Below the pieces are notes generated by a model. It worked only from the letters and a program-made list of their open reading frames with translations, had not been told where the DNA came from and did not search any database. 64,000 nt of DNA from Tricholoma matsutake (Eukaryota; Basidiomycota; Agaricomycetes; Agaricales; Tricholomataceae). Positions 5,308 to 31,631 of the stretch are shown one piece after another. The stretch's first letter is position 1, and each line of letters begins with the position of its first letter. The stretch is taken from positions 1,054,001 through 1,118,000 of the forward strand of contig AP026545.1 in the NCBI GenBank assembly GCA_026075535.2. Reading direction: 5' to 3'. Position numbers and translations under genes: made by a program.

Positions 5308-5342
5308 ATTATTTGTTAGTGATTTTGTCTTATATGTGGCAT

Positions 5343-10060: not shown

Positions 10061-10079
10061 CAGAGTGGATGAGCAGTAC

Positions 10080-10290
10080 TTTACACTCCCCCCCCCCCCA
10101 GTCTGAGCAGACTCCGCTCAGACACACTCGGACACTCAGACTGTCCTCAGACTTCACTTGGACTCTGCTCAGACTCTGCTTGGACACTCGGACTTCACTC
10201 AGACTCTGCTCGGACACTCAGACTGTCCTAGGACTGTCCGAGTAAAGTCCGAGGACTGCACTCAGACTTTGCTTGGACTTTGCTTAGACA
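10080..10290. repeat. Left-arm minisatellite of element 1
   Basis: After a run of C, the sequence is built of 10-12-bp variants of AGACTCTGCTC, GGACACTC and CAGACTGTCC. The same blocks occur inverted at 16440-16612. They are the variable terminal part of the composite family, equivalent to the GTCCAACTGGA array of element 2. Confidence 0.7.
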
Positions 10291-10299
10291 ACACCAATT

Positions 10300-11035
10300 G
10301 TGCATTTACTTACATCTTTAAAGTACTGTCCATGTTAAGGGCAAAGCCTCAACTACTCAATCTAGTTGATGTCGTCCAACGAGGTGCTTCCTCGATGAGT
10401 TGTTTGGTACTAGTCTTACTCAGAGCATCTGACATAAGATGATAGTACACCTCTAGCAGGTCTTCTGTGTAGAGTCGTCTGGGTTCATGCACTAAGGGGC
10501 TCCTTAGTGGTTTTGAGTGAGTTCATGTACTAAGGAGATTCCTTAGTAGTTTCGAATGAGCTTGCAAGTTAAGGCTGTAGATTGCCTAGATCTAAACTAA
10601 GGACATCCCTACTATGAGTTGCAGTACTTATACTACAAGGGAGGTCCTTATCATCCAATCAGAAAGATAGATGCATATCAAGTAAGAATAGAAACAATAG
10701 GCCTCATGCCTTGCATGAGGCGTCTGATGTCATGGACCTCATGTTAAGGGGCTGTCGTATCACAGCATGTATGGGAGTGGGTTCGGGTGCATGGAGTCAC
10801 CATGCATCTAGGGTTCCTTCCACGGGAAGGGGATCGAATGCATGCAGTCAGCATGCGTCGTGCATGTGTCTGGTGTCAAGGACATGCCCTAGGCATGAAT
10901 CAGGTAGTGCCTCCTGTCTGGAGGTGATCATCGGGTCGGTCGGGTTGGTTGGGTTCCATGAGTTACAAGGAAAATTGTAACAGTCCAAGTTCCAGACTTA
11001 CAGAAATTCTTGTAAGTCTCACAAAATGATGTGTG
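10300..11035. other. Left-arm spacer of element 1
   Basis: I see no protein motif here. Two copies of a roughly 50-bp unit lie side by side at 10483-10565 (GTTCATG.ACTAAGG .. CCTTAGT.GTTT), each holding a CTAAGG/CCTTAG palindrome. Short ATGCATGCAGTCAGCATGCG-like palindromes occur near 10830-10860. Confidence 0.4.
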
Positions 11036-11123
11036 CACAGCAGGAATTGAACCAACAGACTTCTGGACAAGCAATCACATGACAACCAAACATGCACACT
11101 CTACCACTTAAACCAAGTAGTCA
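11036..11123 (-). other. tRNA-like sequence in element 1 left arm
   Basis: On the minus strand it reads GACTACTTGGTTTAAGTGG at the start, with an A-box-like GTGGTAGAG, and ends with the B-box GGTTCAATTCC. An insert of about 35 bp between the two boxes contains GTTTGGTTGTCATGTGATT, the same as in the element 2 copy at 28425-28511. It faces the element end. It is too long and mispaired for a working tRNA, but its internal promoter boxes could bind TFIIIC. Confidence 0.6.
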
Positions 11124-11199
11124 TTTAAAGTCACATACATCATATCTATTTATTACTGAAATCTAATTTGTATATATATCATGAATAGATTATTAAATT

Positions 11200-11282
11200 G
11201 ACCCCCTCGCATCTGTGCGAGGGGTAATTAATATGTGTAATACTAGGCCCTCCCCTCGCAAGCTCAAGGGGAGGGGGCCATA
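11200..11282. repeat. CCCCTCGC hairpins, element 1 core
   Basis: Two hairpins follow each other: CCCCTCGC .. GCGAGGGG at about 11203-11224, and CCCTCCCCTCGC .. GGGGAGGG at about 11249-11276. The stems are GC-only and short-looped. The same type is repeated four times at 28610-28845 in element 2 and, degenerate, at 11530-11572. Confidence 0.65.
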
Positions 11283-11527
11283 ACTATCAATAATAAAAAT
11301 AAATTAAAAACACCCACCTAGGCAATAGCATGTGTACTCCCATGGGTACCCAGAGCTCTACCCATACCTGTACCCACATGGGTAGAAACCCGTCGACCCA
11401 TGGGTTGATATGTGGTGGGTATGTACCGGCAGGTGTCGATTCCCACATGGGTTTCATAGCACCCCCAGGCCAAGTATATAAATTATATAAATTAATTGTA
11501 TCTAAACTAAGTATTCTAAGTGTACTA

Positions 11528-12410
11528 AAATCCACCCCACCTCGTGTTTGCGAGCGAGAGGGGGGTGGTGGTCATGACTTCATGCTAGTAACATTAGTTA
11601 GTAGGAATATAAAAAAAAAGACAAGAAAAATAATAAACTTATGGCCCAGTGGCAGGGGTGGGTGTTGGGTTGGTGCCATCATTCCCTCCACCTCCTCCTC
11701 ATCCCCTTGTCCCCCTCCTTGATGTCCTGCATCATCGTCATCTGGTCATGGTCCTGGTCCTGGTCGTCATGGTCCTGGTCATCATGGTCCTAATTGTTGT
11801 CGCCCTCCATCCCCCCTGGTTCATCATTAAGCACCCATGATCCATCCTACAAGCAGGGGCTTGCAGCAGTGTGGCAGGTGCTGGGTCAGCTTCATCATCC
11901 TATTGTTGCTGTTTTGTTGTTGTCGGTAATTCTGAACTAGTTGGTAGCTAAAAATGATCATTAGCAACAAATAAATGAAATGAGGATGAAAAGACTTACC
12001 AATGGCCCAGGAGATGTCGACGATGTCTCTTGGGCCTTTTTTGCTTTCGTTGTTGTTGTTGTGTCGTCCTGTCCTTATCCTCGTCGTCCATTGTTGATCT
12101 GGGTTACTTCATACCACTCAGCCTGGGCCAGCCACCCCATGAGCAGGGGCTCATGGCAGTGGCAGGGTGGGGTTCGTCGTCATCATCAGAATCCAGATCT
12201 TGTAACATTAGTTAGTAACAATAGAATGAAAAGAGAAAGAAAAAAGACTTACATACAGCCCAAGAGACGTCGTCTAGGTTTCTTAGGCCCTTGCTTTGGT
12301 CTGCTGGGTGGGGGCCCTGCTTGTTTGGTCATCCTGGTCATCCTTGTTGTGGCCTGGGACAGTCGAGTCATTGTCACAAATGATTACAAATAAATGTAAA
12401 TAACACATTG
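11528..12410 (-). other. Intron-bearing core modules of element 1, part 1
   Basis: Two intron-like segments lie on the minus strand: 11948-11999 (GTAAGTC .. TTTTTAG) and 12199-12252 (GTAAGTC .. CTAAC .. AAG). Each is preceded by an exon-like end that reads GPRDIVDISWAIG or a decayed version, from an inverted-repeat GGCCCAAGAGA .. TCTC.TGGGCC. CAAGCAG..GCTTG hairpins flanked by CCACCC and GGTGG lie at about 11845-11875 and 12130-12165. Frames are broken, so no protein is called. Confidence 0.45.
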
Positions 12411-12665
12411 ATAGGTTGTCTCCTCGGCTCAAAGGCCGATTCACCATTACAACCACATTCTAATCACATTGGCTAACTCCCATGAGGTCCCAGAAGCAGC
12501 ACAACCACTCCTGACCAAGTCTACCGAGTGTGATATCGTATCGACCGTGTTGATCATACTTAGAAATCACATCGCACAACCTTAGGACTACCTCGAAAGC
12601 CCCTAAGATCCCTCTAAATGACCATTGAACATCCCTGATCAACCTCAAACAACCGTGAACGCGAT

Positions 12666-12755
12666 CAAACATTGTTGAGCATTGTTGAGTATCGTTGAGC
12701 ATCATCGAACATCATCAACCATCGTCGACCATCGTCGAGTGTCATCGATCAATAT
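12666..12755. repeat. 10-bp tandem repeat CATCGTCGAC
   Basis: About eight consecutive units vary around CATCGTCGAC / CATTGTTGAG. The rest of 12421-13092 has no recognisable gene. It may belong to a decayed LTR element, since inverted, CpG-rich blocks of this kind are also seen at 13890-14110. Confidence 0.6.
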
Positions 12756-12825
12756 CGAGAGACTATGAGCGACATCGGGCACCACATTTGTTATCTATAT
12801 GGTGAAATACCATGCGCCAGGAAGG

Positions 12826-12903
12826 ATTCCAACTCGTGCCCAAACCTGCTGATAGTAGGTCAGCCTCGTTCCAAGTCCCTATCGCACACAGAACCCGCTG
12901 GAC
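12826..12903 (-). other. tRNA-like sequence, degenerate
   Basis: The minus strand ends with a T-arm-like GTTGGAATCCTTCC and an acceptor-like TGGCGCA, and has a GCTGA .. TCAGC stem where an anticodon arm would be. The B-box has one mismatch and position 33 is not T. The acceptor stem pairs only in part. Probably a tRNA-derived relic. Confidence 0.3.
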
Positions 12904-13092
12904 GAATTATTGCAAGACTTAGCACAATTTATACACAAAGGACAGTCCCCTTTTAGTTCTATACCCTTTATTACTCTTTCATCATATCATATATATATCT
13001 TTCTTGTTTGGATTCCAGTCTCCTTTTTGGCCTTGTGCCTTAACTCATATCTTTTGCCTCATGTTCTACACATGTTTCTCATTCCATTTTAG

Positions 13093-13752
13093 TGTCAAGA
13101 ACCATTCCTTGCCCGATTGGAACCCGCATCCATCCGACTCTTTCCCTTCCGATTTCATTCCCAGCCGCCTTGCACTGCCACACTGCTGTGCACCAGGCTG
13201 CCTTGTACAGCACCCACGGCTGCCTTCCCAATGCTGCTGTCTCTATTGCAAATTCGACTACAGATTCCTGTGTGGCTCCCACTAGATAATTTATCTATGC
13301 AGTCTTCATTCTTGTTCTGCATTTATTCCAGACTACAGTATTTAGGCTTAGTTAGTTTCACCTTGTATTCCTCAGTTTGTATATCGACATAGACTCGACT
13401 TTATCCTGCCAATCTAAACCTCCTTCTACTCCAACCTCAGTTCTCTAAGAGTCTGAACTCCATTTGACTCGACCTCTAGTCTCCCTCTAAAGTTCTAACC
13501 TCACGTGAACTTAACCTAAGTCCCTCCGTACTCCTCCCTGCATTTACCCGCACTTTCCTGCTCCTACCTCCAAACCTTTGACTTGAAATTAGGACACCAG
13601 ACAAGGTGAAGGGTGCAGCTTCTTACAAGCTGAAGCCAAGTCCTTTCCATTTCCCCTCCCGCAGAATCTGCATCGACCCAACAAACTCCTGCTATTATCA
13701 CCTGCAGTGTCTGATCGGATTCCGATGCACACTCTAGGATCAGTTCTTAACA
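13093..13752. mobile_element. Solo LTR A (TGTCAAGAACC family)
   Basis: The 660-bp segment starts TGTCAAGAACCATTCC and ends GATCAGTTCTTAACA. The ends form a short inverted repeat (TGTCAAGAAC / GTTCTTAACA). It is flanked by the perfect 5-bp repeat TTTAG (13088-13092 and 13753-13757). It matches solo LTR B at 15542-16247 along its whole length. No internal retroelement genes of this family are in the window. Confidence 0.9.
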
Positions 13753-13757
13753 TTTAG

Positions 13758-14469
13758 GAAGTTTCTTCAAAACATATAAAACTCTGTAGTATCTACTTGG
13801 AAATAGAAGAAATCGTCTTCACCTATTGTCTCATATTAAGTTCTAAGAATCAGATCTATCCTCTAAAACAATTTAAACTTCTATGAGTGTTCTCGATCGA
13901 CGAGAAACCTCTGCGATCATCACGTCCTCGATCTTCCTACAATCCTCTTGTTGTTAGCACTAGCAACCATTCCAATATGTCCTAGCCATTGGCTATAGCC
14001 TTCATATACTATCGACCTATCAAAAGGTCCTCGGAACTCACACTTTGACCATCGGCGATAGAACTTGTTTGCCGTCAATCTCATCGATCGTCCTCGATAT
14101 CGATCGATGCCCCATCAGACCTTGTCAAATACCTTTGTCCCCTATAGCACTACCTTCACGACTAGTACCCACTAGTTATCTTCCTATTGGTTGGACCACG
14201 AACATTTGGAACGACTTGCACCCTTCCTCTGACTTGTCGCAAATATCATCGGTTGCCTCATTGGCTGTTTTGGTGGTTTTCCTGGGTTGAGTATCATCAG
14301 TGTCAAGAATCAACAAAGACGCGATTACCGTGTGCACACAAGACCAAATTGTCTGTGCACATCCCAGGGGTATATAAACCCTCCCATTTCTACTGGTGGA
14401 GCTGGGCTTGCCCCACTTTCATTTTTAATATGTAGTTAATAATTTTAAATAGACTTATATGTTATATTT
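13758..14469. other. no recognisable gene; possible promoter
   Basis: CpG-containing sequence with TCGATCG blocks at 13895-14110 and a good TATA box (GGGTATATAAACCC) at about 14369-14382, preceded by a GTGTGCACA .. TGTGCACA direct repeat. This looks like an LTR promoter of an unidentified element. I could not find its ends. Confidence 0.3.
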
Positions 14470-15541
14470 CAAGCCATTACCTCCTTTTTGGTGATGGGTA
14501 GGCCACGGGTTGCGGGTTGGTATTCCACAACCCGTACCCGTACCCATGCTATTGCCTACACCCACCATGAGCAACTGTTGCTCGTGGCGGCATTCGTCTC
14601 TCCCCAGGTCATCCCCCGGCCGTCTCGCTCTCCTGTCCCCATTCTTCTCCCCCCAAACCACCCCACAAGCAGATGCTTGTAGGCGTGGGGTGGGTGTCAT
14701 CATGGGTGTCCCCACTTGTCATCGTCTCCCTTCCCTCTTGTCTCCCTTCCCTCTTGTCTCCCTTCCCCCTCATCTCTTCACCCTCACCTTCCACCCTGTG
14801 AGCAGGGGCTTGCAGCAGTGGTGGTGGTGGTGTCCCCCCGTTGTCATCGTCACCAGTAGTAGTTTGTACCTAAAAAAAGTTGGTTAGCATCGAAAAATGA
14901 AATGAGAAAAGGAAAAAAAAAACTTACCTAGGACCCAAGAGACATTGACATCTCTTGGGCCTTTTTTGTCTCCCTGTCAGTACCTGCACTCTCGCACCCC
15001 CCATCCACCCCGCAAGCAGTTGCCTGCAGCAGTTATGGGGGGTGCTGGCTGTCATTGGGGTCTCCTAATTGTCGTCGTTCCACCCATTGTCCACCCTACA
15101 AGCAGTGGCTCATAGGGCTGGGGCAGGTGGTGTCGTCATTCCCTGTCATTGTCATTGTCATTAGCAGCCGCTCTCCCCCATGCGAGCAGTTGCTCGCACT
15201 GGTGGGGGTGGGTGCTGGGTCATGGTCTTGTCGTTGTTCCTCATTTGGTGGTTTTGGGGTCATTGTGCTGCTACAGTATAGATATAACCTATAATTAATG
15301 AAAAAATGTGTTAGCTTAAAGAAAACATGAGAAAAGAAAAAAGAAAAAACTCACCTGGGGCCCAAACAATGATAGAGTCGTTTGGGCCCATTTCATCGTG
15401 TGCTGGCATGGGGCCCATGGCTGTGGGGTGTTCAGGGGGCAGTGGCGGCAGTGGGACGTGGGAGGGAGGCGTCGTCGTTGAGTGGTGGTGGTGGTGGTGG
15501 TTGGTGATGATCGATGATGAGCTGGCATCATCATTGGTGAC
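14470..15541 (-). other. Intron-bearing core modules of element 1, part 2
   Basis: On the minus strand a possible start codon (about 15547, slightly overlapping the later solo LTR) opens a frame with a His-run and Pro-rich stretch ending GPNDSIIVWAPG. It is followed by an intron-like segment 15289-15354 (GTGAGT .. GCTAAC .. TATAG). The next exon-like part (15288-14928) carries four CAAGCAG-type hairpins and ends at a second intron-like segment, 14870-14927 (GTAAGT .. GCTAACC .. TTTTTTTAG). Exon frames contain stops, so this is a gene-like relic, not a called protein. Confidence 0.5.
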
Positions 15542-16247
15542 TGTCAAGAACCGTTCCTTGCCCGATCAGAACCCGCATCCGTCCGACTCTTTCCCACATG
15601 TTGAACCTCACATTTGTCTACTCCTTCCGATTTCGTTCCCGGCCGCCTTGCACTGCCCACACTGCTTTGCACCAGGCCACCTTGTACAGCATCCACGGCT
15701 GCCTTCCCAAGGCTGCTGTCTCTATTGCAAATTCAACTATGGATTCCTGTGTGGCTCCTGCTAGATAATTTATCTATGCAGTCGAGACACTGCTGCAATC
15801 TTCGTTCGTGTTCCGCATTATTCTGGACTACAGTATTTAAGCTTAATTAGTTTCGCCTTGTATTCCTCAGTTTGTATATCGACATAGACTCGACTTTATC
15901 CTGCCAATCTAAACCTCCTTCTACTCCTACCTCAGTTCTCTAAGAGTGTGAACTCCATTCGACTCAACCTCTAGTCTCCCTCTGAAGTTCTAACCTCACC
16001 TGAACTTAACCTAAGTCCCTCCGTACTCCTCCCCATGTTTACCCACACTTTCCCACTCCTACCTCCAAACCTTCAACTTGAAATTAGGACACCAGACAAG
16101 GTGAAGGGTGCAGCTTCTTACAAGCTGAAGCCAAGTCCTTTCCATTTCCCCTCCTGCAGAATCTGCATTGACCCGACAAACTCCTGCTATTATCACCCGT
16201 AGTGTCTGATCAGATTCCGACGTGCACTCTAGGATCAGTTCTTAACA
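15542..16247. mobile_element. Solo LTR B (TGTCAAGAACC family)
   Basis: The 706-bp segment starts TGTCAAGAACCGTTCC and ends GATCAGTTCTTAACA. It is flanked by the perfect 5-bp repeat GTGAC (15537-15541 and 16248-16252). Compared with solo LTR A it has a short extra block near 15595 and 15785 and scattered C/T and G/A changes. The different target duplications show two separate insertions followed by LTR-LTR recombination. Confidence 0.9.
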
Positions 16248-16319
16248 GTGACACAGCTGTGTTGATTTGTCATCACAGCTGGGGCAGTACATAGAGAGAT
16301 AAAACTATCTACCTATAAT

Positions 16320-16402
16320 GATACTTTAGTCTAACGGTTATATTGTTGCCTTAAATGTACTTTATCATGTGACTATGAGGGTTCAATCCCTGTGGTAGCC
16401 AC
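16320..16402 (+). other. tRNA-like sequence in element 1 right arm
   Basis: It starts GATACTTTAGTCTAACGG, with an A-box resembling that of tRNA-Asp/Glu (TAGT.TAA.GGTTA), and has the B-box GGGTTCAATCCC at about 16379-16390. The segment between is longer than in a real tRNA and the acceptor stem does not pair. It points to the right end of the element. The same type is in element 2 at 29893 and, inverted, in element 3 at 19953-20034. Confidence 0.6.
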
Positions 16403-16429
16403 TGATTTTTCAGTCAATTATATAAGCAA

Positions 16430-16626
16430 CTTGGACAGTCCTAGGACTGTATGAGTGCTGGTCCACTCGGACTCCGCTCAGACACTCAGACTGTACTCAG
16501 ACTGGACCTCTAGTTTGGCAGGACTGTCAGCCAAAGAAGTCTGAGCAAAGTCCAAGCAAAGTCCTTGGACAGTCTGAGTGTCTGAGCAGAGTCTGCTCGG
16601 ATTGGGGGGGGGAGTGTAAAGACCTC
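16430..16626. repeat. Right-arm minisatellite and end of element 1
   Basis: Units such as GGACAGTCC, GTCTGAGCAAAG and GTCTGAGCAGAGTC lead to GGGGGGGGAGTGTAAAGACCTC. Read in reverse complement this matches the left end of the element, giving terminal inverted repeats of about 60 bp. Confidence 0.7.
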
Positions 16627-19280
16627 TGGATGAGCATGGTGTGGATCATCTCAATGAAGACAGGTTAGATATGGATTTGGATGGGGTGTTGTTGAAGTGA
16701 TCATCTTACATTATGGACTATACATATAGAGGCTCATTTCTGAGTGACCTGAATCTTTGGGACTTCATGTCTGACATAGAAAAGGTGAAGAAGAGTGGTA
16801 AAAAAACAGTGGCAATGACAGCAGATGCTGCAGCTGACAAAGATGTCAATGATGAAGAAGGCAACCCTTCAGCAGGAGTCAGTAGCATTTATACACAGAC
16901 CCTACAACAGGCATTGGATTCTGAGACAAGAGCATGGCCTGTTATCAATCTGGAGTCAGCTCATCATGATTCAGAAATGCATGCGTTGTCAATTTGACAC
17001 CCTTCCATCTGTCCAGTCATTGTTCCCAATGGACCAGGAATCCCTCAATGAGATAACAAAGAATGTTATGATTGGTATTGTAGGTTGATGTTGATATTCT
17101 TCAAACCATGGTGCAATGTATCTGACTTATGAGGAAGTTTTGAGAACTGGCCAGAAGCTTTTGCACACTTTATGTCTCATGACAGTTCAGAATTGGCTCG
17201 GATCACCATGGACCATATGCAAATCCTTCACGAGTGTAAGGATTTCCAAGCAGACCATCTTCATCAGCAAAAATTATGGTATAGAAACTTGAACATATCT
17301 CCAGAGATGCAGGCAAGTCGAGTAAGTGAAAAGGATGGTTTAGCAGAGTTTGTGGATGAGCAAGAGGTTTTGACCCATATTGAAGCTGTTGATGCATGTC
17401 ACCCTCGAATGCAAGACAATGGATCCAAGAATGTCTTACCTTGCCTGTTTTATGCACAACAGAGTGGGATATATACTGATCAATGTGAAGGTAGCATTGT
17501 CAACAGTGAGCTGGTGGAGGATATAGATTGTATCTTAATGGAATGTTGTAGCCTAGAAGATGAGTGGGATGAATTGTATGCAGACCATCAAATTCAGAAC
17601 AAGAAACATCATTGCTTACAGCCTCAGGATGTCACCACTGTACCTCAATCGAGTGTGAGTACTTCCATACAAGATGGCAACATGTACCAAAATGCACAGG
17701 GATCCGTTGAACCAGCGATGGTACAAATCACTGAAGATATTGATGTTACCAATCAGGAGCAAGTTGTTGATGTGAACAATGTAATCAGGCATTGGTGTCT
17801 AAACAGGGAACTGGAACATGCCTTTCGAATTGTTGTTACACAGAGTTTTGATGTTCATGAAGATCTGTTATGCATGTTTTTAGGGGGCACCACTGGTACT
17901 GGAAAATCTCGAGTAATTAATGCCATTAGAGATTCCTTTGAGCAACATGGTCAAACATGGAGATTTTGTGTGTGTTCATATATGGGAATAGCAGCACGTA
18001 ACATATGCAGAATGACACTTCATGCTGCATTGGGAATCAATCATGCAAATAGTAGCCAAGGACCTTCACAATTTGACAGAGACCTTACTGCAATGTGGTG
18101 TGGGGTTGACTTCTTATTTGTTGATGAAGTTTCTATGATCAGCTGTCAATTTTTGTGTCAGATCAGTGAGCGATTGAGCATCATAAAAGGCAACTCATCA
18201 GCATTTGGAGGTATCAACATCATTTTCACCGGGGATTTTGCTCAACTGCCACTGGTAAGAGAGACAAAATTATTTGCTTGTATCAAGCATACTTTTAATG
18301 CTTCCTCGAAACTGGGTCAGAGCATTGTTCTGGAAAAATTGCTGTGGCTATCAGTGAAAACAGTCGTTACTTTAAACAAACAACATTGGCAGATGGGTTC
18401 AGAAAACAGTACCTTCGTTGCATTACTGAGTTGATTATATGAAGGTCAGTGTACTGCTGCAGATTATCGATTACTACAATTCAGGATTCTTACCCCAGAA
18501 AAATATTGTGCAGACACTAAATCAATGCAAACACTAATAATAGTAAGCAATAATGCCACAAAAGATGCTTTAAATGAAAAATGCGGTGTTCACTGGGCAA
18601 AATAGATGAATAAAACTGTCCATTGGTATTACCCAGCTGATAAACACCTGGATTTAGTTCAGGTATTATGATTGATCCATTCAGGCACCACTAGAGGTTG
18701 ACTTGGCCATCTTCCTTTGTTCATTGGCATGCCTGTGCTTGTCTCTCATAATTTTGATGTTGAAGGGGGGATTGTAAATGGCAGCTATGGAATAGTAAGA
18801 TATATATGATATCATCTGAATGAGGCTGGGGAAAGGCACTTACATTCTTGTGTGGTGGAGATAGATGATGCATGCCCAGACCCTATGTCCCATTTGTTAG
18901 CTGGAAATTGTCCAATTATGGCTGATACTACCAAGATAAGTTATACACACCCATTCTCCAAGTGTTCATGTTCTTTTGCTCATACCCAAGTACCTATTGT
19001 GCCTGTGTATGCTGTAACTGCCCATCGAGCACAAGGCCAATCTATGGAAAAGGTTATTGTGGATCTTGAGTCATGCCAAGGCATGGAGGCTCCATATGTC
19101 ATGGTATCAAGAGCTACTTCTCTGGAGGCCATACATATCCTTTGGCTCTTTCAGCAAAAAAGGATTACCTGTGCGTTATCTCAAGATGCTTGCACTGAAA
19201 AGACTAGACTTCATCGATTATCATTGCAAACATTGATGAAGTTTGGTGATGCCGACAAATCCAAACAAGCACAACTCTAG
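16627..19280 (+). pseudogene. Helitron 1 PIF1-type helicase region
   Basis: The part after element 1 reads DEHGVDHL and continues over a stop at about 16700. The main open frame, 17172-18434 (420 codons), has Walker A GGTTGTGKS at about 17885, Walker B FLFVDEVSM at about 18115 and motif III GDFAQLP at about 18230. A TGA ends it at 18432. Three or more stops and shifts follow. The last open part, 18852-19280, has the C-terminal helicase motifs TAHRAQGQS and YVMVSRATS. All core helicase motifs are kept, but the chain is broken. The domain order fits a Helitron RepHel protein. Confidence 0.85.
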
Positions 19281-19762
19281 CTCTCAACAATGAGACTTGA
19301 CTGTCCCATCCAGACAAGTTTTACACCATACAGCAATCGGCCAGAGGAGCCATTTGCTCTTCTCCAGCATCTCCAAAAACAAGATTTAGGTATCCATGAA
19401 GCACATCCTAATTATGCCTCCTCTCTGTCCTCAATCAGGTAGCTCATCAGCTGTGCTTCAGTAGAGTCACCAGAAGATTTGTTAATACCATCAGGTAATT
19501 TTATTACATGCGAAGAAATTTACAATTTGTGTTACTTACAAATCATATCCATAAATGAAGAAGTTTGGGAAAGCAGACCAACAAACTGCATACATAAGAA
19601 GGCTTACTTCCAAATGGTACCTTTATGAGGCAACAATGCCACCGCCACCTGCAATGACCACCCTACGAACATCCAACATAGTATCAAATGTATGACTGAA
19701 CTCTCTGTGTTTCATTCAAATCCATAACCTTGCATTAATAGGTACTTCTCATATACATAAAT
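19281..19762. other. Helitron 1 3' flank, no gene
   Basis: The sequence should contain the Helitron 3' end, a GC hairpin followed by CTRR, but I cannot identify it with confidence. It ends in ACATAAAT, the left target duplication of composite element 3. Confidence 0.4.
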
Positions 19763-19952
19763 GAGGTCTTTACACTCCCCCCCAATCCACTCAGACTCGA
19801 CTAGAAATTTGTTGGCTGAGACACCTGCCAAATTAGTAGGTCCAGTCTGAGCAGACTCCTAGTATAGTCCTAGCATCTGATCGGACAGTCCTAGGACAAT
19901 CCTAGCACTCAATGTGTTTGCAGTTACTTATTTATTTATAGATAGAAAATGT

Positions 19953-20034
19953 AATTAACAGTAGGATTCGAACCCTCCCTTTGACATAGCTTACGTAATG
20001 AAGTGAATGAGCCTAACCATTACACTATGAGAGC
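19953..20034 (-). other. tRNA-like sequence in element 3 left arm
   Basis: The minus strand reads GCTCTCATAGTGTAATGG, with a full A-box, and GGGTTCGAATCC, a perfect B-box. The region between contains an extra 15-20 bp and the acceptor and T-stems pair poorly. It is the best preserved pair of RNA polymerase III promoter boxes in the window and points to the nearby element end. Confidence 0.65.
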
Positions 20035-21235: not shown

Positions 21236-21320
21236 GTCCTTTGATATCTATAGTTATATTTTTAATTAAACTATTCATAAAAGATACCCCAAAGAAATTA
21301 GTAGTTTGGATATCTGTGAA

Positions 21321-21849: not shown

Positions 21850-22178
21850 ACCAGTCACAGTACTTTACAGTCCCCCACCTGTCCTAGTGGACTCCAACTG
21901 GACTGACTGGTTTTGCAATTGGTAGAATTGTCTGGTACATCGATGTATGCGAGAGTGTTACAAATCTAATCTAAGTTCACATACTAAGCAATCTGGGGGC
22001 GGATGCAATAGGCTGGGATCCGAGAAATGGAATCTGTGATTCCACCTAGTAACTAGAAAAACTGGATTCCATCCTACCAAGCCGGGGGTGAGCTGAGGAA
22101 TGACTATGGGAACCTGAATTGAGAAGCAAGCCTAAAGGTGCATTGTAGTTGTGATGAAGACTCACCTGAAGTTGTGAA

Positions 22179-23363: not shown

Positions 23364-23429
23364 GATGGTGTTTGGTGATTGTCTTGTTTGAAATGGAAAT
23401 GGTCTGCGTCTGCCCTATGTCAATATATC

Positions 23430-24165
23430 AAACCATTCATTGATCATGGTAATCTACTGCATTATGTGCAAATCTTGCTAAATGGAAAGGCAACTTAGGG
23501 GGAAACACATATAGAGCCTTCTTATCAGCCAGCACTCCTCTCGATGGGTTATCCGCAGGGTTCTCCGATGTGGGTATCGAGATTGCTGAAATCCAGAGGT
23601 TGTGCTCCTGAATGAGCTTGATGATCTCGCGTAAAATGGCATTCTGCTGGGTACCTCATGATCTGCCTGCTTTCAATGCACCCACCACCCCTTGGTTATC
23701 AGAACGTATAATGATATGCTCGCCGGAGAATTTCGTGGTAACCAGTGTCCGAACTGCCAGTTCCACTGCTACCATCTCACCCCAACCAATCTCCCACCCC
23801 TCTGAGTTCCATCCCTCCTTGAATTGCCATGCCAACCATCTGCCATCAATAACCAGTCCAATGCCCCACCCAGTCGATGCGTCCACAAAGAGCTTCATCT
23901 CCAATGGTTCTGGGGGGCAGATTATCTTCATCCCTACGAAGTCACCCTGCAAGCGTCGCCTCCACCAGTCTATATCCTCCACTGCTAATGCTGCGAGCTT
24001 ATGCTTCACCTCCCGAGATTGCCCTGCTCTGAAGCTGCCCCGAAACTTGTAGAGCGAAACCATCCTTGAACGCCCCTCTGGAACAACCAAGCAGACATGG
24101 TTCAGCATGCCTATCACCTTCTCCGCTGCTTTTGCACTATGAACTGAGCCTCACGTCCAGTCGGC
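23430..24165 (-). pseudogene. RNase H domain of the DIRS-like element
   Basis: The frame reads AKAAEKVIGMLNHVCLVVPEGR, then LFVDASTGWGIGLVIDGRWLAWQF, EMVAVELAVRTL and IIRSDNQGVVGALKAG, which supply the Asp, Glu and Asp of RNase H. Two TGA stops lie in the link to RT near 24120-24165. A TGA at about 23655 separates RSDNQGVVGALKAGRS from the tail NPADNPSRG. That tail (last catalytic Asp region) is kept. It would degrade the RNA strand of the hybrid during copying. Confidence 0.8.
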
Positions 24166-24168
24166 TAT

Positions 24169-25147
24169 TCACCCCAGGTACTTTGCCTTCTTCTTCCCAG
24201 GTAGCTCCACCTTCTTCGCCTCCAGGTCCCACCAAAAGCCGATATACATGAAAGCCGGTGCAAAGTCGACGAATTTTTCAGGCGCCCATGGCCACCCCAG
24301 CTCTTCAGCAATCCCCCAGACAAGGTCAGACATGTATGAATATTGAAAAGATCCATCAGATAGGCGCCGAGATGGGTAGCGTAGGAAGATGAAGTCGTCC
24401 ACCCATTTAAGGACTGCTTCAATGCCCCGACTGATGAGTATTTGGACCATGGCATCCACAACTCGGCCGAAAATTCCAGGTGATGGTGATGCTCCAAAAT
24501 TCAATACATGGTCGAGATGGATCAACCCTTTCATCATTATGGCCAGGAAACAGCGTGCTGAAGGGTGAGTGGAGATGTTTCGGAATGCAGCATCAACATC
24601 AAACACAGCTGCCTGGGTTCCTTCAGGCGCGTCAGCCACCAAAAGATAACACTCAGAGAATGATCCCCAAGCACACTGGAACTTCGTAGAGTCGATAATC
24701 GTGTTAATAGAGGTTGTCGTGGGGTCAATAATAGTTTTGTTAGCCGAGTTGGGCAAGGGAGCCTCAAGATCAATGCAGTGTGTATTCTTTGGAAAAGAGT
24801 GGTTTACAATGACACGTCATTTACCATTGCCCTGGTCGATAACTGCGAGAGGTGCTGTGCAAAAATGTCCAATTAATGAGAAAAGTGTATCTGGCTCATA
24901 ACCCCACGATAATCTACCAAGCTTAATTTCTTCCGCATACTTCGCTATCACGAATTCTTTGTCTTCTTCTGAAATGTAATGATTTGGTGGAATGGATGTG
25001 CATGACAATGAAAAATTTTCTAAGCCACAGTAGAAACCTTCCCAGAGGCCCACTGGAATATCCTGAAACTCCCCCATGATGCCCGCATCCTCGAGAGCAC
25101 GATCCCATGCATCTGGTTTAAGTTTTGTGATAATTGGGAAGATGTCG
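24169..25147 (-). pseudogene. Reverse transcriptase of the DIRS-like element
   Basis: The RT core is divided by one TGA at 24817, after DQGNGK, where the family has a Trp or Arg codon. Before it lies GYEPDTLFSLIGHFCTAPLAVI. After it come RVIVNHSFP, the AAVFDVDAAFRNI motif A, GASPSPGIFGRVVDAM and the catalytic KWVDDFIFLRYP. FMYIGFWWDLEAKKVELP marks the RT-to-RNase H link. The VDD catalytic pair is intact. Its neighbours confirm the DIRS-like order. Confidence 0.85.
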
Positions 25148-26652
25148 TCAGACACTGCATTTGTCAGACCCATGTGAGAGGCCACCACACAATGAACATG
25201 AGTGGCTGAAGTTGCAGGTGGGTTGCCTGCAGCTGGATGGACTGATGTTGAAAGCGATACAGACGATCTGATTGCCCAAGGCCTTGTCGACCCATTTTCC
25301 ATGCTTGCCAAGGACCAAATGCTTTGCACTATTTTGGTGTTCTCTATAGGCATGGGGTCTGGCACAGAGAAAACACTTGATCGTGGAAGAAGCTTGGTGG
25401 GTGCAAAAGGAAGGTGGCAAAAACTGCTGGTGGCCTCCTCCCTGAAAGGAGTTGACCTGGGATCCGTTGTAAGCCCCACACCCCCTACCTCTCCCACTGG
25501 AATAACTACCGCCACCCATTAAGCTAGCACCCCCTGCCAAACTGTTGGTCCCTATAAAGCTGCTGCCTCCCACCTGGCCACCGCCCACCTTCAGACCAAG
25601 TGAGCCGCCCACCTGTTGCTTCAAGTGCTCGAGCATAGACAGTATCAGATTCTTCATTTTGTACTGGTGGAAAACGCTCTCATTGAAAATTAGCCTGTAA
25701 GAATTGTTCCTCCAACCAACCCAAGAAGTGTAGTTCTCGATGATGTAGCCCCTGTATGAAGACCAGTCGATTGTGAAGTCAGGCCGTGCTGCTATCATGC
25801 TGAAGAAATCAGAGAACATGGCTGCACATCGTGCCGCCTTCCAACTGTTGGCCTCACTTTCATCACCCAACACCAGATGTCTATGCATCCCCCAAACAAA
25901 GTTCTCCCAGATCTCCGTGAAATCATCTGTCATTAGATAGTAATCCCTCGCAGGCATCATCGCCTTCTGTGTCACCTTGAGTTCCCCTCTTTCATTCCAT
26001 CCCATCTCCGCAACAAAGGGATCTGTAGTTTGAGTAGTGTTTGAGCAGGCCTTGTGTGCGTGCACAGTGACGGCGGGATGTAGTTCTTGAACCCACCCCT
26101 CAACTCTTTGATCACGGAGATAGGGAGGTCACTTGTAGCATTCATAATCGTCATAGAGAAATAGTCATCCAGCTGAAGCAGATCGTTACTGTCCATCGCC
26201 TGTTCTGCCCCACCCATGCCCAGCTGAAGTGGGATGTTAGTGCCCGCCCCAGGTACTACCCCACCCCTGCCCAATGTAGCCACTATCGCAGCAACAAGCT
26301 CCACGTTTACCACTGGATGAGCCACCGCAGGACCAGCTGCTGATGCCTGGTCCGGGAAGGCATTGTGCATGTATTGATTCAGCTGGGTATGTTCGTTTGA
26401 CTGGGTCGCAACAGCGAATGTTGGTTCGGACATCTGGGGTGCATATATGGGAGCCTGTGTAAATTTGCCTGCTGCTTCATGCTCGTGCATGCAAGACACT
26501 GTATTTGTACGCAAATCAGCAGAGACACCTGTCATTGCAGTAGAGTGAGGGCACGCTGCTGTACAATAACCAAGTTCGCTAACCTGGTTTTTCATGCATA
26601 CAAGCTGCTGTAGCAGTATGAGGACCCTGCAGTCCTGGCACTGTGTGCGCAT
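25148..26652 (-). pseudogene. gag: Gag of the DIRS-like element (C-terminal two thirds)
   Basis: Two overlapping frames (26652-25972 and 26065-25148) join through one frameshift near 26050. The first ends ISVIKELRGGFKNYIPPSL. The second continues WNERGELKVTQKAMMPARDYYLM and IWENFVWGMHRHLVLGDE, typical of basidiomycete DIRS-like Gag. A Gly-rich linker follows, then two cysteine clusters: CFLCARPHAYREH and the zinc knuckle CSLCGGLSHGSDKC. It should package the RNA. Confidence 0.75.
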
Positions 26653-27517
26653 GCGCTGCCACCATGGGAAGAGGAGTATGCTCTCCTAGCTGTATGCGTG
26701 CCACTGCAGCATCCTGGGCACTATGTGGCCCTGCCTGCAGTAGATTCAGCAGTGTATGGGATTCACCTTGCGTGTCCCCCCAGTACTCCGTAAACAGCCT
26801 CCTCCCAGCACTCGATCCCTTAGCTTTGGGGGAGACAACCTTGTATGCAACTCCGCCTACTGGGGTATAACCTGTTGGGCGGTGTTCATCTTCTGGTGGC
26901 ACCTGGCCCTGCACTGCCAACCAAGCTGCATCTGCATCGCGTGTGCGGAAGACATCCTGTGTTAGCCCATGACGAAAAGGGTTCTTGACCACCGAACTTG
27001 ATGCTGGGGTCACAATTGCCTTTCCTTTCCCTTTCTCTGCCCACATCAACACCTCTGGTTCAACTGCCATTGGCGAGGGAAGCTTCCTCCCAACACCTGT
27101 CACCCACTGCCCCGCCGCCTGCTTGTTCGTTACCATCTCATCCTGCCACGCATCGAGCAAGCCCCCGCTCTGCGGTTTGTCAAAGTGTGTGGGTGAGAAA
27201 TCTGCTGCTGAAGCCAGAGGGGGAGGGATCTGAGAGCGTTCCGAGGCCCCTGGCGCTTCGCTGGTTGCCATCTGCTTTCGACTGACCTCTACTACTGGGA
27301 GGGCCTTTGAACTTGCCCGGATTGCGGTGAAGTCCCGAGAGTCAACAACCTTTCCAGATGCATCCTTTGGCTCACCCAGCAACTCTGGTGCCTTCTCACC
27401 CTGTTCTCCTACAGGCAGTAAAACTTCATATAGGTATCCCACAGCTGGCTTCACCCCTGGAGGTGCCTTGATAAGCATCAGCCCTGCTTGCACAGAGTTT
27501 GCCCTTCTTGATGCCAC
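26579..27517 (-). CDS. N-terminal Gag-like ORF of the DIRS-like element
   Basis: A 312-codon open frame rich in Ala, Pro, Ser and Gly begins MASRRANSVQAG. It overlaps the next Gag frame by 74 bp in another frame. It has no domain I recognise. Mid-length motifs include WQDEMVTNKQAAGQW and KNPFRHGLTQDVFRTRDADAAW. Its place upstream of Gag suggests the N-terminal part of a Gag polyprotein, separated by a frameshift or ribosomal slip. Confidence 0.55.
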   Translation of the reverse strand: MASRRANSVQAGLMLIKAPPGVKPAVGYLYEVLLPVGEQGEKAPELLGEPKDASGKVVDSRDFTAIRASSKALPVVEVSRKQMATSEAPGASERSQIPPPLASAADFSPTHFDKPQSGGLLDAWQDEMVTNKQAAGQWVTGVGRKLPSPMAVEPEVLMWAEKGKGKAIVTPASSSVVKNPFRHGLTQDVFRTRDADAAWLAVQGQVPPEDEHRPTGYTPVGGVAYKVVSPKAKGSSAGRRLFTEYWGDTQGESHTLLNLLQAGPHSAQDAAVARIQLGEHTPLPMVAAHAHTVPGLQGPHTATAACMHEKPG

Positions 27518-27910
27518 CCGAGTCGACCTTCATATGCCCAGAGAAGCCGAACCTTCTGGAGCCTTCACTTGTTGTCCCTTGGTCTCCCTCAAACCTTCTT
27601 CCACTCCTACGGCCACATAAGCATCAGACAAGGATCCAGAACCTTGCCCACTATCCAGACTGGCCACCGTGGTCCATGATCGTGACTGTCTGCCAAAACT
27701 GCATGTTCCCTGCTGAGCTGAACTGCTCACCATGCGAAAAACTAGATGACGAAACCAGACTCAGCAGCGGCGAGTAAGAGAATATGCAACTGGCTATGTA
27801 GAGCAGATGGAAGTTGAGTGAAAAGACTGAGGTGCCATCACATGACCCAAACACGTCAGAATTCTACTATGCAAAACATCTGTACACTACACTTGTGCCT
27901 TGTTCATCTA

Positions 27911-28335
27911 CCTCCACAGTCCAACTGGAGTCCAAGCAGAGTCCAACTGGAGTCTGAGTGAAGTCCAATTGAACTACATTAAGTCATGTAGAGTTCAATC
28001 CCCCACTGGAGTCCAACTGGAGTCCAACTGGAGTCCGAGTGGAGTCCGAGTGGAGTCCAACTGGAGTCCAACTGGAGTCCGAGTGGAGTCCGAGTGGAGT
28101 CCAACTGGAGTCCAACTGGAGTCCAACTGGAGTCCAACTGGAGTCCGAGTGGAGTCCGAGTGGAGTCCAACTGGAGTCCAACTGGAGTCCGAGTGGAGTC
28201 CGAGTGGAGTCCAACTGGAGTCCAACTGGAGTCCAACTGGAGTCCAACTGGAGTCCAACTGGAGTCCAACTGGAGTCCAACTGGAGTCCGAGTGGAGTCC
28301 AACTGGAGTCCAACTGGAGTCCAAGTGGAATGCAT
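27911..28335. repeat. 11-bp minisatellite GTCCAACTGGA / GTCCGAGTGGA
   Basis: About 35 units of 11 bp alternate between the two forms. Each unit is nearly palindromic (TCCA..TGGA). As 11 is not a multiple of 3 and no unit creates a stop, long open frames appear in several frames on both strands with an 11-residue period. This is the left-arm terminal repeat of element 2, separated from its end (21858-21910) by the retroelement. Confidence 0.9.
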
Positions 28336-28424
28336 TTCAACCAAATGATAAGTCAATTAGATATGAGCTCAAAGGACTTCAGACTTGGTGAATTTCATAA
28401 AGTACCCATAAAATAAATTTGTGT

Positions 28425-28511
28425 ACTGCAGGAATTGAACTCAAGACCTCACCATAAGGAATCACATGACAAACCAAACAAGTGTGCTCAACCACTTGAG
28501 CCACAGGAGAC
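28425..28511 (-). other. tRNA-like sequence in element 2 left arm
   Basis: The minus strand reads GTCTCCTGTGGCTCAAGTGG, with A-box TGGCTCAAGTGGTTGAG, and ends with the B-box GAGTTCAATTCC. Between them lies TTTGGTTTGTCATGTGATTCC, which matches the element 1 left-arm copy at 11036-11123. It points toward the element end. Confidence 0.65.
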
Positions 28512-28604
28512 TTATTAGAGATCAATATAAGGTTTATTTATGACTCAACTTTTCATATTCTTTGAGGAGGCATTTTTCAAACAATTAAGATCAAAAAATT
28601 TTAA

Positions 28605-28850
28605 TTAACCACATCCCTCGTGTAGGACACAAGGGAGTGGGTATAATATAATAATAAAGAAAAAAAATGGGGGATTACTACTATGTACATAAAAAACTAA
28701 ACCCCTCATGTTCAGCGCAAGGGGGGGATTCATAAGTACTACAATATATATACCCCTCGCATTCAGTGCGAGGGGGGGGGGCAGAGATAAATTAAAAATA
28801 ATAAAGACCCCTCCTCATGCAAAATGCAGGGGAGGGGGGGTTGGGGGATG
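28605..28850. repeat. Four successive CCCCTC hairpins, element 2 core
   Basis: Hairpins with C-rich and G-rich arms and short loops are centred at about 28625, 28715, 28768 and 28828, spaced 50-90 bp by AT-rich linkers (TAATATAATAATAAAG and alike). The third, CCCCTCGCATTC .. GTGCGAGGGG, is nearly perfect. This is the same type as at 11200-11282. Confidence 0.65.
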
Positions 28851-28854
28851 CAGT

Positions 28855-29720
28855 CTGGGGTGGGTGTCGTCACCCACCCCTCCTCGCATGTGTTTGTCGC
28901 CATAGCAAGCCACACCCATCATCCACCTGACAAGCAGGTGCTCGTTGGCGTGGGGTGGGTGTGTTGTCAGTTTTGCGGGTCTCCTAGTTCAGAGGGGTTG
29001 GGGGGAGGGGTCAGTGATGTGGCATGCAAGGGAGGGGGTGGGTGGGTGCTTACCAGGTGGGTATCCTGCTCTGCAGGTCTCCCGGTACCCCTCTGCCATC
29101 TCCTACCCTTTATCAACACCCTCACATCCTGTTTGGATGGGGAGGAGGGGGCTGGCATGGGTGTCGTCAGGTCTGGGTTGATCCCCGTCATTCCATGTTG
29201 GTGTCGGCATTGCCCTGTCGTTGTTTGCCATCGTCACCTCCATTCCACCCGTGATCCACCCCCCGAGCAGTTGCTCAAGAGGCTGGAGGCATGTGGTGTG
29301 TTGTTGGCCCCATTGCTTCACGTTCTGGGGGTCCTGGTGACACTCACAATCCACCCTACAAGCAGGGGCTTGCAGGCATGGGGTGGGTGTGTGGGGTTGT
29401 CTCACGTCCGGCCATCATTACCAGTAGAATAGAACCTACAAAACAAAAGAAACAAGTTAGTTAGTTTATAAAAACACAAAGCAAACAAAAAAAAACTTAC
29501 CTAGGGCCCAAAGATGCAGATTGCATCATTTGGGTCCACATTCCATCCAGTTGGCTCATTTGTGGGTGGTGGCGTCATTACCAGTAGAATATAACCTAGA
29601 AAACTAAAGAAACTGGTTAGTTAGTTTATAAAAACAAAAAGCAAACAAAAAAAACCTACCTAGGGCCCATCCATTCGGCTCATTTGCAGGTGGTGGTGAT
29701 GGCAGATTGGGTGTGGGAGC
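28855..29720 (-). other. Intron-bearing core modules of element 2
   Basis: On the minus strand a Pro/Thr-rich frame ends NEPNGWALG and meets an intron-like segment at 29596-29659. A 95-bp exon-like part ends PNDAICIFGP and meets a second at 29436-29500 (GTAAGT .. CTAACTAAC .. TTTTGTAG). Beyond it lie CAAGCAG-type hairpins at about 28930-28960, 29255-29285 and 29350-29385 flanked by CCACCC / GGGTGG. Stops break the frames. Confidence 0.5.
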
Positions 29721-29892
29721 AGTGGCAGTGGGTGTCCATGCAGTGGTGGTGGTGGTAGAGAGAGGAGGGAGGGAGGCAGCGTCGATGGTGGTGGTGAGTG
29801 ATGAGCTGGCACATTTGATGATGTGGCAATATGCTTTGTCATACACAGCTGCACCATGGTACCTAATGCATGTAGATGATACCTTACACAAG

Positions 29893-29965
29893 GTACTGTG
29901 GTGTAATGGTTATATTGCGCATTATGATTACATAAGCAACCTACAGGGATCTGGTCAATTCCTTT
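29893..29965 (+). other. tRNA-like sequence in element 2 right arm, decayed
   Basis: GTACTGTGGTGTAATGGTTATATTG has the same A-box type as the element 1 right-arm copy (16320) and the element 3 copy (19953). A weak B-box (GGTCAATTCC) is at about 29952. It is shorter and more decayed than the others. Confidence 0.5.
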
Positions 29966-29979
29966 TCTTACAAACTTTT

Positions 29980-30225
29980 TCAGCGGAATCCGACTGGACT
30001 CCAACCGGACTCCACTGGACCAGCTCCAACTGGACTCCAACTAGACTCCACTGGACTCCACTGGACCAGTCTGAGTGGAATCCAGTGTTTGAGTGGATTC
30101 CACTCGGAGTCCAGTTGGACTGGACTGGGACTGGACTGGCAACTTTGCAGGCAGTTGGCTGGTGAACAGTCCTGGTGGACTCCAGTCAGAGTCTGACAGG
30201 AAAGGTGGGGGAGTGTAAAGACCTC
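29980..30225. repeat. Right-arm minisatellite and end of element 2
   Basis: Units of the type GGACTCCAACT and GGACTCCACT are repeated, then GGTGGGGGAGTGTAAAGACCTC. The orientation is inverted relative to 27911-28335, as required for terminal inverted repeats. Confidence 0.7.
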
Positions 30226-30594
30226 ACCAGTCAGTACAACTTTCCAGTGACTTTGTGCACAAAAATTAGGGACACAATATAGTGGACACCTACTTTCACA
30301 CCTCGCGGTATCTGCACACAACACAACCAAACAACTCACACTGCCAACTGTATGAGACATGCTAACAGCTCATTCATTCACACATGTCATTTTTGTAAGT
30401 CTTGCATCATTAAATGGGTAAATGACAAATTAATGTTTATATTCACAGGTTAATACTGTGGCATTTGGTAAGCTTAAATGTGAAATCAACCTGACGACCT
30501 ATTGCAAGTTAAGTAATGACTTTTGTAAGTCATTTTTTAGTCAACATATTTATAGTACTAAGTCAATCATTAGAAGCACATTACTGACTTCAAT

Positions 30595-31380
30595 ATGAAC
30601 CACTACAAACTTGTTCACTGCTTTGTTACAAACCTTTATTGACCTTGGCATAAACTATTACAAAAATGTTATTGACTTTAATACAAGCCATTACAAATTT
30701 GTTTACTGACTTTGTTATGCTTGGTGTAAACTATTACAAACATGTTGTTGACTTCAATACAAACAAACTATTACAGACTTGTTTACTGACTTTGTTGCAA
30801 ACCTTTACTGACCTTGGTATAAACTATTACAAACATAGTATTGACTTCAATACCAACCGTTACATGCTTGTTTACTGACTTTGTTACAAACCTTTACTGA
30901 CCTTGGTATAAACTATTACAAAAATGTTGTTGACTTCAATACAAACCATTACAAATATGTTTACTGACTTTGTTACAAACCTTTACTGAACTTGGTATAA
31001 ACTATTACAAACATGTTATTGACTTCAATACAAACCATTACAAACTTGTTTACTGACTTTGTTACAAACCTTTACTGACCTTATAAACTATTACAAAAAT
31101 GTTGTTGACTTAATACAAACCATTACAAATATGTTATTAACAACCATTACAGACTTGTTTACTGACTTTGGTATAAACTATTACAAAATGTTGTTGACTT
31201 CAATACAAACCATTACTGATCTTGGTATAAACCATTACAAATATGTTATTGACTTCAATACAAACAAACCATTACAAACTTGTTTACTGACTTTGTTACA
31301 AACCTTTACTGATCTTGGTATAAACTATTACAAACATGTTTACTGACTTTGTTGCAAAGCTTTACTGACCTTGCTTTAGT
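30595..31380 (-). repeat. Diverged inverse 22-bp array of element 3
   Basis: Units such as CTTTACTGACCTTGGTATAA and TTGTTTACTGACTTTGTTAC repeat, with a higher-order period of roughly 85-90 bp. They match the reverse complement of the units at 21321-21849. The two arrays therefore form a very large inverted repeat in element 3, now separated by element 2. Translations with periodic LLQTFTDLGINYYKH-like strings are by-products. Confidence 0.8.
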
Positions 31381-31499
31381 GTTTATTATGGTGTTAGTCT
31401 AGTTTGTATGAGTAATAATCAGCCTTCCAACTTGGACTACATCTGGACAATCATTCAGAAGTGTAAATTTTCATTATGAAGTTGATTTGAATGTAGTTT

Positions 31500-31623
31500 G
31501 CTTGAAGTCTTAGCAGAGTCTGAGTGGAGTCCGAGCAGAGTCCTAGGACTGTCTGAGCAGTCCTAGTCCAAGTGGAGTCCGAGTGGAGTCTGCTCGGACT
31601 AGGGGGGGGAGTGTAAAGTACCA
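31500..31623. repeat. Right arm and end of element 3
   Basis: GTCTGAGTGGAGTCCGAGCAG and similar units end in TAGGGGGGGGAGTGTAAAGTACCA. No tRNA-like sequence of the expected left-arm type is visible next to it. Confidence 0.6.
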
Positions 31624-31631
31624 ACATAAAT

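Follow-up and report, generated by a model that had tools for sequence, protein, structure and literature searches.

A high-copy family of apparently non-autonomous DNA transposons with outward-facing RNA polymerase III-type units in Tricholoma matsutake

Introduction

RNA polymerase III (Pol III) promoters are common in retroelements, whose replication intermediate is RNA. A cut-and-paste element needs no RNA intermediate, so promoter and terminator motifs that recur in such an element raise the question of what role the Pol III machinery might have in it. We analyzed a stretch of 64,000 nucleotides on chromosome 8 of Tricholoma matsutake (contig 8, 1,054,001-1,118,000; the whole stretch is called the window below) and searched the genome for relatives of three transposon-like elements found there. 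They belong to a family with one end of the ACCTC type and one of the CAGTAC type (right and left arm or unit, respectively), and inside their ends lie units resembling tRNA genes that face outward. The insertion signature of the family is of the cut-and-paste type, the outward units are integral to the elements, and their promoter and terminator motifs recur. We consider it likely that this is a high-copy, non-autonomous DNA transposon family whose Pol III-type units are under selection and which is moved in trans. The family is thereby named in the genome of a commercially valuable mushroom, searched here as a telomere-to-telomere assembly of 161,040,721 bases in 13 contigs, of which repeats make up 71.6%; the repeat table gives 13 copies of short interspersed nuclear elements (SINEs), 4.9% of the genome for DNA transposons and 25.4% for unclassified repeats (PMC10211490, in excerpt).

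Among described systems, Helenus, Cassandra and Ajax (TRIMp3) are closest in promoter architecture: like the family, they are non-autonomous, conserve A and B boxes without a tRNA fold and carry a Pol III promoter inside both terminal regions, and Helenus is known in Agaricomycetes (PMC10886601, in excerpt). These likenesses might suggest that our elements are themselves of the Helenus/TRIMp3 type, that is, non-autonomous long terminal repeat (LTR) elements whose LTRs contain a Pol III promoter. However, TRIMp3 elements have LTRs as direct repeats, promoters in the same orientation, duplications of 4-5 bp and a length of at most 1.3 kb (PMC10886601), whereas the family has inverted ends, two unlike units that diverge, duplications of 8 bp rather than 5, and a length of about 2 kb. 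We regard the chance of such an affiliation as practically negligible. The phrase 'DNA transposon' is absent from the main text of PMC10886601.

In duplication length, the family resembles Zisupton and Dileera (KDZ), which make 8-bp duplications in fungi, and non-autonomous hAT elements, hAT duplications being usually of 8 bp (PMC12730594, in excerpt). It differs from KDZ elements in showing no transposase gene and in having outward Pol III-like units, and its ends diverge past the first six bases. Two other groups were set aside: Plavaka, with duplications of 2-3 bp, and Kyakuja, with 7-bp duplications and no inverted ends (PMC12730594), as against 8 bp and an inverted core of 11 bp in the family. 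A parallel of another kind is offered by the tRNA gene (tDNA) and TFIIIC barriers of fission yeast, in which B boxes or tRNA genes flank a domain and block silencing (PMC4502379, PMC2040200, both in excerpt); these are fixed chromosomal elements, and the likeness would be one of working, not of membership. The short mobile element megB1 of Agaricomycetes, reported in Tricholoma section Caligata among others, is a dimeric Alu-like retroelement (PMC10627285, in excerpt) and is set apart here by description, not by sequence. In PMC6980582 the whole words SINE, hAT, MITE, DIRS, megB and TIR are all absent. In the open-licence literature, which was covered mostly at listing level, no article was found that deals with paired Pol III units in a DNA transposon, and we have not seen described there an outward tRNA-gene-like unit inside each end of a cut-and-paste element. 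What would be new here is that a non-autonomous DNA transposon making 8-bp duplications has, in several of its types, two Pol III-type units that diverge.

The Family and Its Insertion Signature

Element 1 (type A, a relative of locus L050) lies at 10074..16626 on the + strand (6553 bp, CAGTACTTTACACTCC ... GGAGTGTAAAGACCTC) between two copies of TGGATGAG (10066..10073 and 16627..16634). Element 2 (type B, a relative of L043) occupies 21858..30225, also on the + strand (8368 bp including a nested DIRS-like insert), and is flanked by ACCAGTCA (21850..21857 and 30226..30233). Element 3 (type C, a relative of L042) is found on the - strand at 19763..31623 between copies of ACATAAAT (19755..19762 and 31624..31631). 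The original prediction had thus placed the elements correctly, each with a perfect and different 8-bp repeat and the third inverted relative to the others. Its further statement that all three share the same ends holds overall, except that element 2 starts with CAGTACTTTACAGTCC (one base off) and that element 3 has TGGTAC at its CAGTAC-type end. The term 'composite' which it used is only partly apt: the base unit measures about 2 kb (an ordinary copy about 2.1 kb), and the large copies in the window owe their size to sequence inserted later, for example a 6-kb DIRS-like element. Element 2 consists of a 2.4-kb unit and this retroelement, and element 3 of 3.5 kb of its own sequence plus element 2, which is nested within it.

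The ends comprise 16 bp, an inverted 11-bp core and an asymmetric outer 5 bp. The core (CTTTACACTCC, at most one mismatch) has 7 matches in the window against 0.96 expected, and 0 of 100 shuffles get to 7. Genome-wide, with at most two mismatches, GGAGTGTAAAGACCTC gave 2069 matches against 211 for the reversed pattern and CAGTACTTTACACTCC 2258 against 140; exact CAGTACTTTACAGTCC was found 354 times, its reverse not once (0). The excess over the controls, roughly 1,860 and 2,120 matches, includes fragments and is therefore an upper guide to copy number. Variants of the CAGTAC-type end in the copies read were CAGTAC, CAATAC, TGGTAC, GTAAAC and (C)ATAAAC; the other end, GAGGTCTTTACACTCC, served as search key, so its variation falls outside the comparison.

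The two kinds of end occur in pairs. Among 100 listed exact ACCTC ends on contig 1 (C1), 50 had an exact CAGTAC-type partner on the proper side and strand within 20 kb, 39 of these 50 within 3 kb (median 2121 bp), as compared with 16/100 and 10/100 in the controls for wrong strand and wrong side; 45 of 67 exact CAGTAC ends were used in the pairing. Duplications were read in twenty 10-kb regions holding 21 ACCTC ends (L037 and L048 repeat neighbours and were counted once). A partner with an 8-bp repeat was found for 15 of the 21, to which the three elements of the window are additional. Ten of the 15 repeats are perfect, two have one mismatch, two are perfect but shifted by a base (L036 501-2631 and L047 501-4527, where the CAGTAC-type end is preceded by an additional base) and the last has two mismatches. 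The first eleven pairs in reach gave nine perfect repeats and two with one mismatch; for 11 ends the partner search found none under a strict rule and was repeated under a looser one. The fifteenth pair joins C1:2117829 to a partner 10.9 kb off at C1:2106919, with a perfect ATTCCCAT repeat. Most of the ends read thus have flanking repeats of 8 bp, and empty sites, which the original prediction had also called for, were found for two nested copies. For element 2, the empty site is in L042, to which the joined flanks align in a single stretch across the junction (92.8% over 403 bp). For the copy nested in L047, element 1 of the window has the uninterrupted site. For elements 1 and 3, the joined flanks had no spanning match among the best 40 of 351 genome-wide candidates; this list was taken up by a repeat from element 1's left flank and is uninformative.

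The 2-kb base units carry no transposase open reading frame (ORF) that could be seen by eye among ORFs of at least 150 aa in the window and 11 loci. The motif AGTCC/GGACT is concentrated near the ends: the outer 200 bp have a density of 1-7 per 100 bp in all but one (L032) of 14 elements; the middle has 0-0.55 per 100 bp, the highest value belonging to element 2 with its insert and the rest lying at 0-0.16. On the ACCTC-end strand, the interiors show intron-like stretches from GTAAGT to TAG, many with CTAAC, and often after a GGCCCAA-n-TTGGGCC hairpin (e.g., window 20442-20533; L032, L033, L042, L043, L047). A loose intron/hairpin pattern matches 12 of 14 elements (not L039 and L050), although some matches look spurious. 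The arms of the GGCCCAA-type hairpin vary between types while their pairing is kept, and no coding function was recognised.

Pol III-Type Units

The window elements carry five outward units. In element 1, the CAGTAC-side unit lies at 11023..11115 on the - strand (A box 11115-11104, B box 11053-11043, T-run 11026-11023) and the ACCTC-side unit at 16327..16410 on the + strand (A box 16327-16338, B box 16380-16390, T-run 16406-16410). The CAGTAC-side unit of element 2 is at 28410..28503 on the - strand (A box 28503-28492, B box 28441-28431, T-run 28413-28410); its ACCTC-side unit, at 29899..29980 on the + strand (A box 29899-29910, T-run 29976-29980), has a B box (29952-29962) decayed by a 2-nt deletion. 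Element 3 has its ACCTC-side unit at 19946..20027 on the - strand (A box 20027-20016, B box 19974-19964, T-run 19949-19946), and none was detected in its other arm, just as the earlier reading of the sequence had described the arms of all three elements. The missing left unit looks like a trait of the subfamily of element 3, to judge from L042, which is of the same type and also lacks it. Most copies read have an outward unit in the ACCTC arm; a second unit of a different tRNA type is present in the CAGTAC arm of types A, B and D but not of C and E. The divergent pair is common, not universal.

Free-standing copies of such units might be expected if the arms were two independent SINEs that had inserted into one transposon copy and spread with it, without selection. 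SINE heads would look like A- and B-box motifs with a decayed fold, the two tRNA-like types differ, and 9/83 left and 2/22 right units are without a listed exact end alongside, all of which would fit such an origin. The distribution of the units speaks against it. On contigs 1 and 2, the exact A-box region of the left type was listed 83 times, and 74 of these units lie outward, 200-783 bp inside an exact CAGTACTTTACAGTCC end, with 0/83 in the opposite sense; conversely, 74 of 97 exact CAGTACTTTACAGTCC ends have a left unit. The right type-B unit is outward, 123-514 bp inside an exact ACCTC end, in 20 of 22 cases (contig 1 below 11.84 Mb). For right type-A units, an exact ACCTC end lies ahead in 13/20 and in the opposite sense in 0, and an exact CAGTAC end lies behind, within 6 kb, in 27/40, with an opposite-sense end in 1/40. 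A divergent left unit is found at 1.24-1.86 kb from 33 of 48 right units, and a same-strand left unit within 3 kb from none (0). The misses can have ends with a mismatch or ends moved by inserts, and one of them, the left unit at C1:2116162, is accounted for by an 8.9-kb insert. Moreover, what comes shortly past the B box is a T-run and not the body of a SINE, and the same motifs are seen again across six divergent representatives. Because 74/83 and 20/22 units sit at the matching end and face outward, we conclude that the units are integral to the elements; no free tRNA-head units with duplications of their own were found among the units listed, and the origin from two inserted SINEs is very improbable. 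The two ends were therefore not found as separate SINE-like units, the outcome that would have spoken against the original prediction.

Of the 33 right arms, 27 have A box, B box and T-run in the order and spacing of type-2 Pol III genes; of the 14 left arms, 9 do. Mean A+B box scores were 20.6 outward, 18.6 inward and 16.7 after shuffling in the 33 ACCTC arms, and 21.1, 18.9 and 16.7 in the 14 CAGTAC arms; the spacing from A to B box is mostly 53-59 nt in the former and 58-62 nt in the latter. All arms that pass the box score (27/27 right, 9/9 left) have TTTT within 35 nt past the B box, against a background of 0.10 and 0.13. The first TTTT starts 13-15 nt past the B box in 18 right arms and 15-17 nt past it in 9 left arms.

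None of this amounts to a functional tRNA gene, which was considered and rejected. In 7 stretches compared with Rfam, the tRNA family gave nothing up to E 5, ARAGORN (bacterial setting, without a positive control) reported 0 tRNAs in the window and in 20 loci, and alignment folds show no cloverleaf: on the left (5 sequences) a D-arm-like hairpin is all that is kept, and on the right (6 sequences) 3 pairs. The Rfam search also gave two weak matches to tmRNA, both at a single interior position and well under the cut-off, and microRNA-family matches, likewise under their cut-offs.

If the units were ancient passengers, integral to the elements but without present function and conserved by shared descent only, similarity should not be confined to the boxes. 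Six ACCTC-arm representatives, chosen by eye, have a pairwise identity of 0.62 in the A-box stretch, 0.81 in the B box and 1.0 in the three T's, as against an ungapped identity of about 0.25-0.35, the chance level, in the surrounding sequence. Shared descent alone would not preserve mainly promoter and terminator, which disfavours the passenger explanation. In its favour, types C and E do without a left unit, the B box of element 2 has lost two nucleotides (in the comparison behind this decay and the divergence of the units, 8/33 right and 5/14 left arms were left out), and the box conservation is partly circular, the arms having been anchored on the best box match; the T-run played no part in the anchoring. 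On balance we hold this explanation to be unlikely, and favour units kept by selection.

Candidate Transposase and Mechanism

Transposase genes that could act in trans are plentiful. The genome has at least 165 KDZ matches (best 150 of 831 candidates scored) and at least 151 hAT matches (best 150 of 449); for Plavaka, the best 123 of 786 candidates were scored. The listed C1 matches were compared with the listed exact ends within 10 kb. For 29 KDZ matches, ACCTC ends numbered 1 pair inside and 4 outside, and CAGTAC ends 1 inside and 1 outside; for 22 Plavaka matches, the ACCTC ends were 1 inside and 4 outside and the CAGTAC ends 3 inside and 1 outside; for 15 hAT matches the count was 0. At three Plavaka copies (C1:4916387, C1:5316257 and C1:5089593), a family element seems to lie about 1 kb downstream, the third being inferred; these look like nested insertions, perhaps an amplified nest.

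A more telling case is the family copy at C1:2106919-2117844, the left arm of which has received an insert of 8887 bp with a perfect 8-bp repeat, GAGCTCAA. This insert (C1:2107156-2116042; L053/L054/L048) is not an autonomous copy of the family, because its own 8-bp repeat flanks it inside the arm. Its inverted ends, GAGGACATCTTG.. (GAGGAC..) and CAGAAAATCTCA.. (CAGAAA..), are identical in 27 of 35 bases. The insert has an ORF that is read from its GAG end and matches CxC6 (E 2.6e-23), a domain named for KDZ transposases. Compared with the family ends GAGGTC.. and CAGTAC.., 5/6 and 4/6 terminal bases are alike, and the intron-like strand of the family also reads from the GAG end, so that the insert resembles the family in its 8-bp repeat, in a short likeness of the asymmetric GAGG/CAG ends and in direction of reading. 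The insert also hosts a type-A family element which carries another nested copy (two more nested copies). The Pfam scan comprised ten ORFs from the window and ten others; the ten longer ORFs scanned gave weak RNase H, protease, gag and DUF4100 matches besides CxC6, and five ORFs neighbouring the CxC6 ORF gave no match.

Since the KDZ-associated insert is flanked by an 8-bp repeat and its GAGG/CAG ends are similar to those of the family, a KDZ-type (Zisupton-like) transposase acting in trans would be the likelier driver of the family. A hAT transposase would be the obvious competitor, given duplications of the usual hAT length and the abundance of hAT genes in this genome. Short inverted ends and subterminal repeats are features of hAT elements, and both are found in the family. 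However, 0 of the 15 listed C1 hAT matches (best 150 of 449 scored) lie within 10 kb of a listed exact end, and by eye the 18 duplications show no hAT-type preference. The ends, one of which begins with CAG and the other with GAG, also seem to depart from the usual hAT terminal pattern, and hAT elements are not known to carry outward Pol III-like units. With the resemblance of the KDZ-associated insert added, a hAT driver appears somewhat unlikely. The proposal of movement in trans by a hAT or Zisupton/KDZ transposase thus finds support: the 8-bp repeats and the KDZ-associated insert fit it, but the autonomous copy that was sought with these ends and a transposase gene was not found among the matches listed.

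One candidate for such a copy, the KDZ gene at C1:6009323, was rejected: elsewhere the KDZ part is bounded by inverted ends of its own, and among the best 40 of 988 candidates, those that were scored, the query alone spans the junction. It belongs to a KDZ-type element at C1:6006974-6015789 (L051 about 674-6000, L052 1-289) with inverted ends of about 225 bp from ACTCACCTAACC, one side of which joins an ACCTC arm and the other a sequence without match to the family.

Under the mechanism that we favour, the element would be cut and pasted by a transposase acting in trans, most probably a KDZ (Zisupton-like) one, that binds the ends and the subterminal repeats, and TFIIIC and Pol III would bind the units. 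Selection might keep the units if, in this repeat-rich genome, Pol III complexes formed on them kept the ends open or prevented silencing; it is through open ends or a barrier that the units would benefit the element. The outward orientation may instead keep transcription off the interior, where a spliced-looking transcript is encoded. A more specific version, in which these are self-insulating KDZ-related transposons whose outward pair of Pol III/TFIIIC sites of two tRNA types keeps the transposase-binding ends accessible in a genome under heavy silencing, the pair being a working part maintained by selection, is tentative, and we think it rather improbable as a whole.

Several observations weigh against a selected unit pair moved in trans. 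As to insertion, the stretch read (roughly 9 kb) contained no partner for 6 of the 21 ACCTC ends, and the L040 pair is weak, with two mismatches and an unrelated candidate that scored equally. As to the units, an exact type-A or type-B right motif is present in only 33 of 100 exact ACCTC ends (a count of these exact motifs, with other types and mutated motifs outside it), and no left unit lies within 1.1-1.5 kb in type C (element 3, L042) and type E (L032). The T-run test omits the arms that fail the box score (6/33 right, 5/14 left), an early TTTT immediately past the B box in 9 right arms could stop the transcript early, and the circularity of the box comparison counts here as well. As to the driver, besides the missing autonomous copy, the listed C1 KDZ, hAT and Plavaka matches show no clear enrichment inside elements, the KDZ copy at C1:6006974-6015789 has long unrelated ends and no matching 8-bp repeat, and the KDZ likeness concerns one insert and a short stretch (chance about 3.5e-4 for either polarity). 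Finally, a barrier alone leaves the outward orientation unexplained, because tDNA barrier activity in fission yeast is independent of orientation (PMC2040200).

If it is true that the units open the ends or block silencing, they would represent an anti-silencing strategy alongside transposon-borne demethylases.

Inserts and Neighbouring Sequences in the Window

The retroelement nested in element 2 lies at 21911..27917 on the - strand (right edge approximate) and has a weak reverse transcriptase domain match; it is DIRS-like, with a recombinase-like ORF judged by eye. It forms an independent family, as many copies elsewhere share its start point (left boundary 21911), and homology picks up again at 27918, past the insert. 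The idea, suggested by 8.2-kb copies, that DIRS-like elements prefer these transposons as a target was dropped, since the listed DIRS-like copies do not coincide with them. Compared with L050, element 1 contains foreign sequence without match at 11318..14558 (approximate) and further inserts at about 10339-10977 and 15540-16256.

Around elements 1 and 3, Helitron-like genes matching DUF6570 and PIF1 helicase are located on the + strand at 6417-8177 and 17133-19280. Element 3 contains long degenerate tandem repeats of the GTAATGAGGTCAGTAAAG type at 21300-21850 and 30430-31380, in inverted order on either side of element 2. A high-copy repeat at about 9874-10060, LTR-like by eye, leaves a gap of about 5 bp to element 1's flanking repeat and is found at 36 further places at 95-99%.

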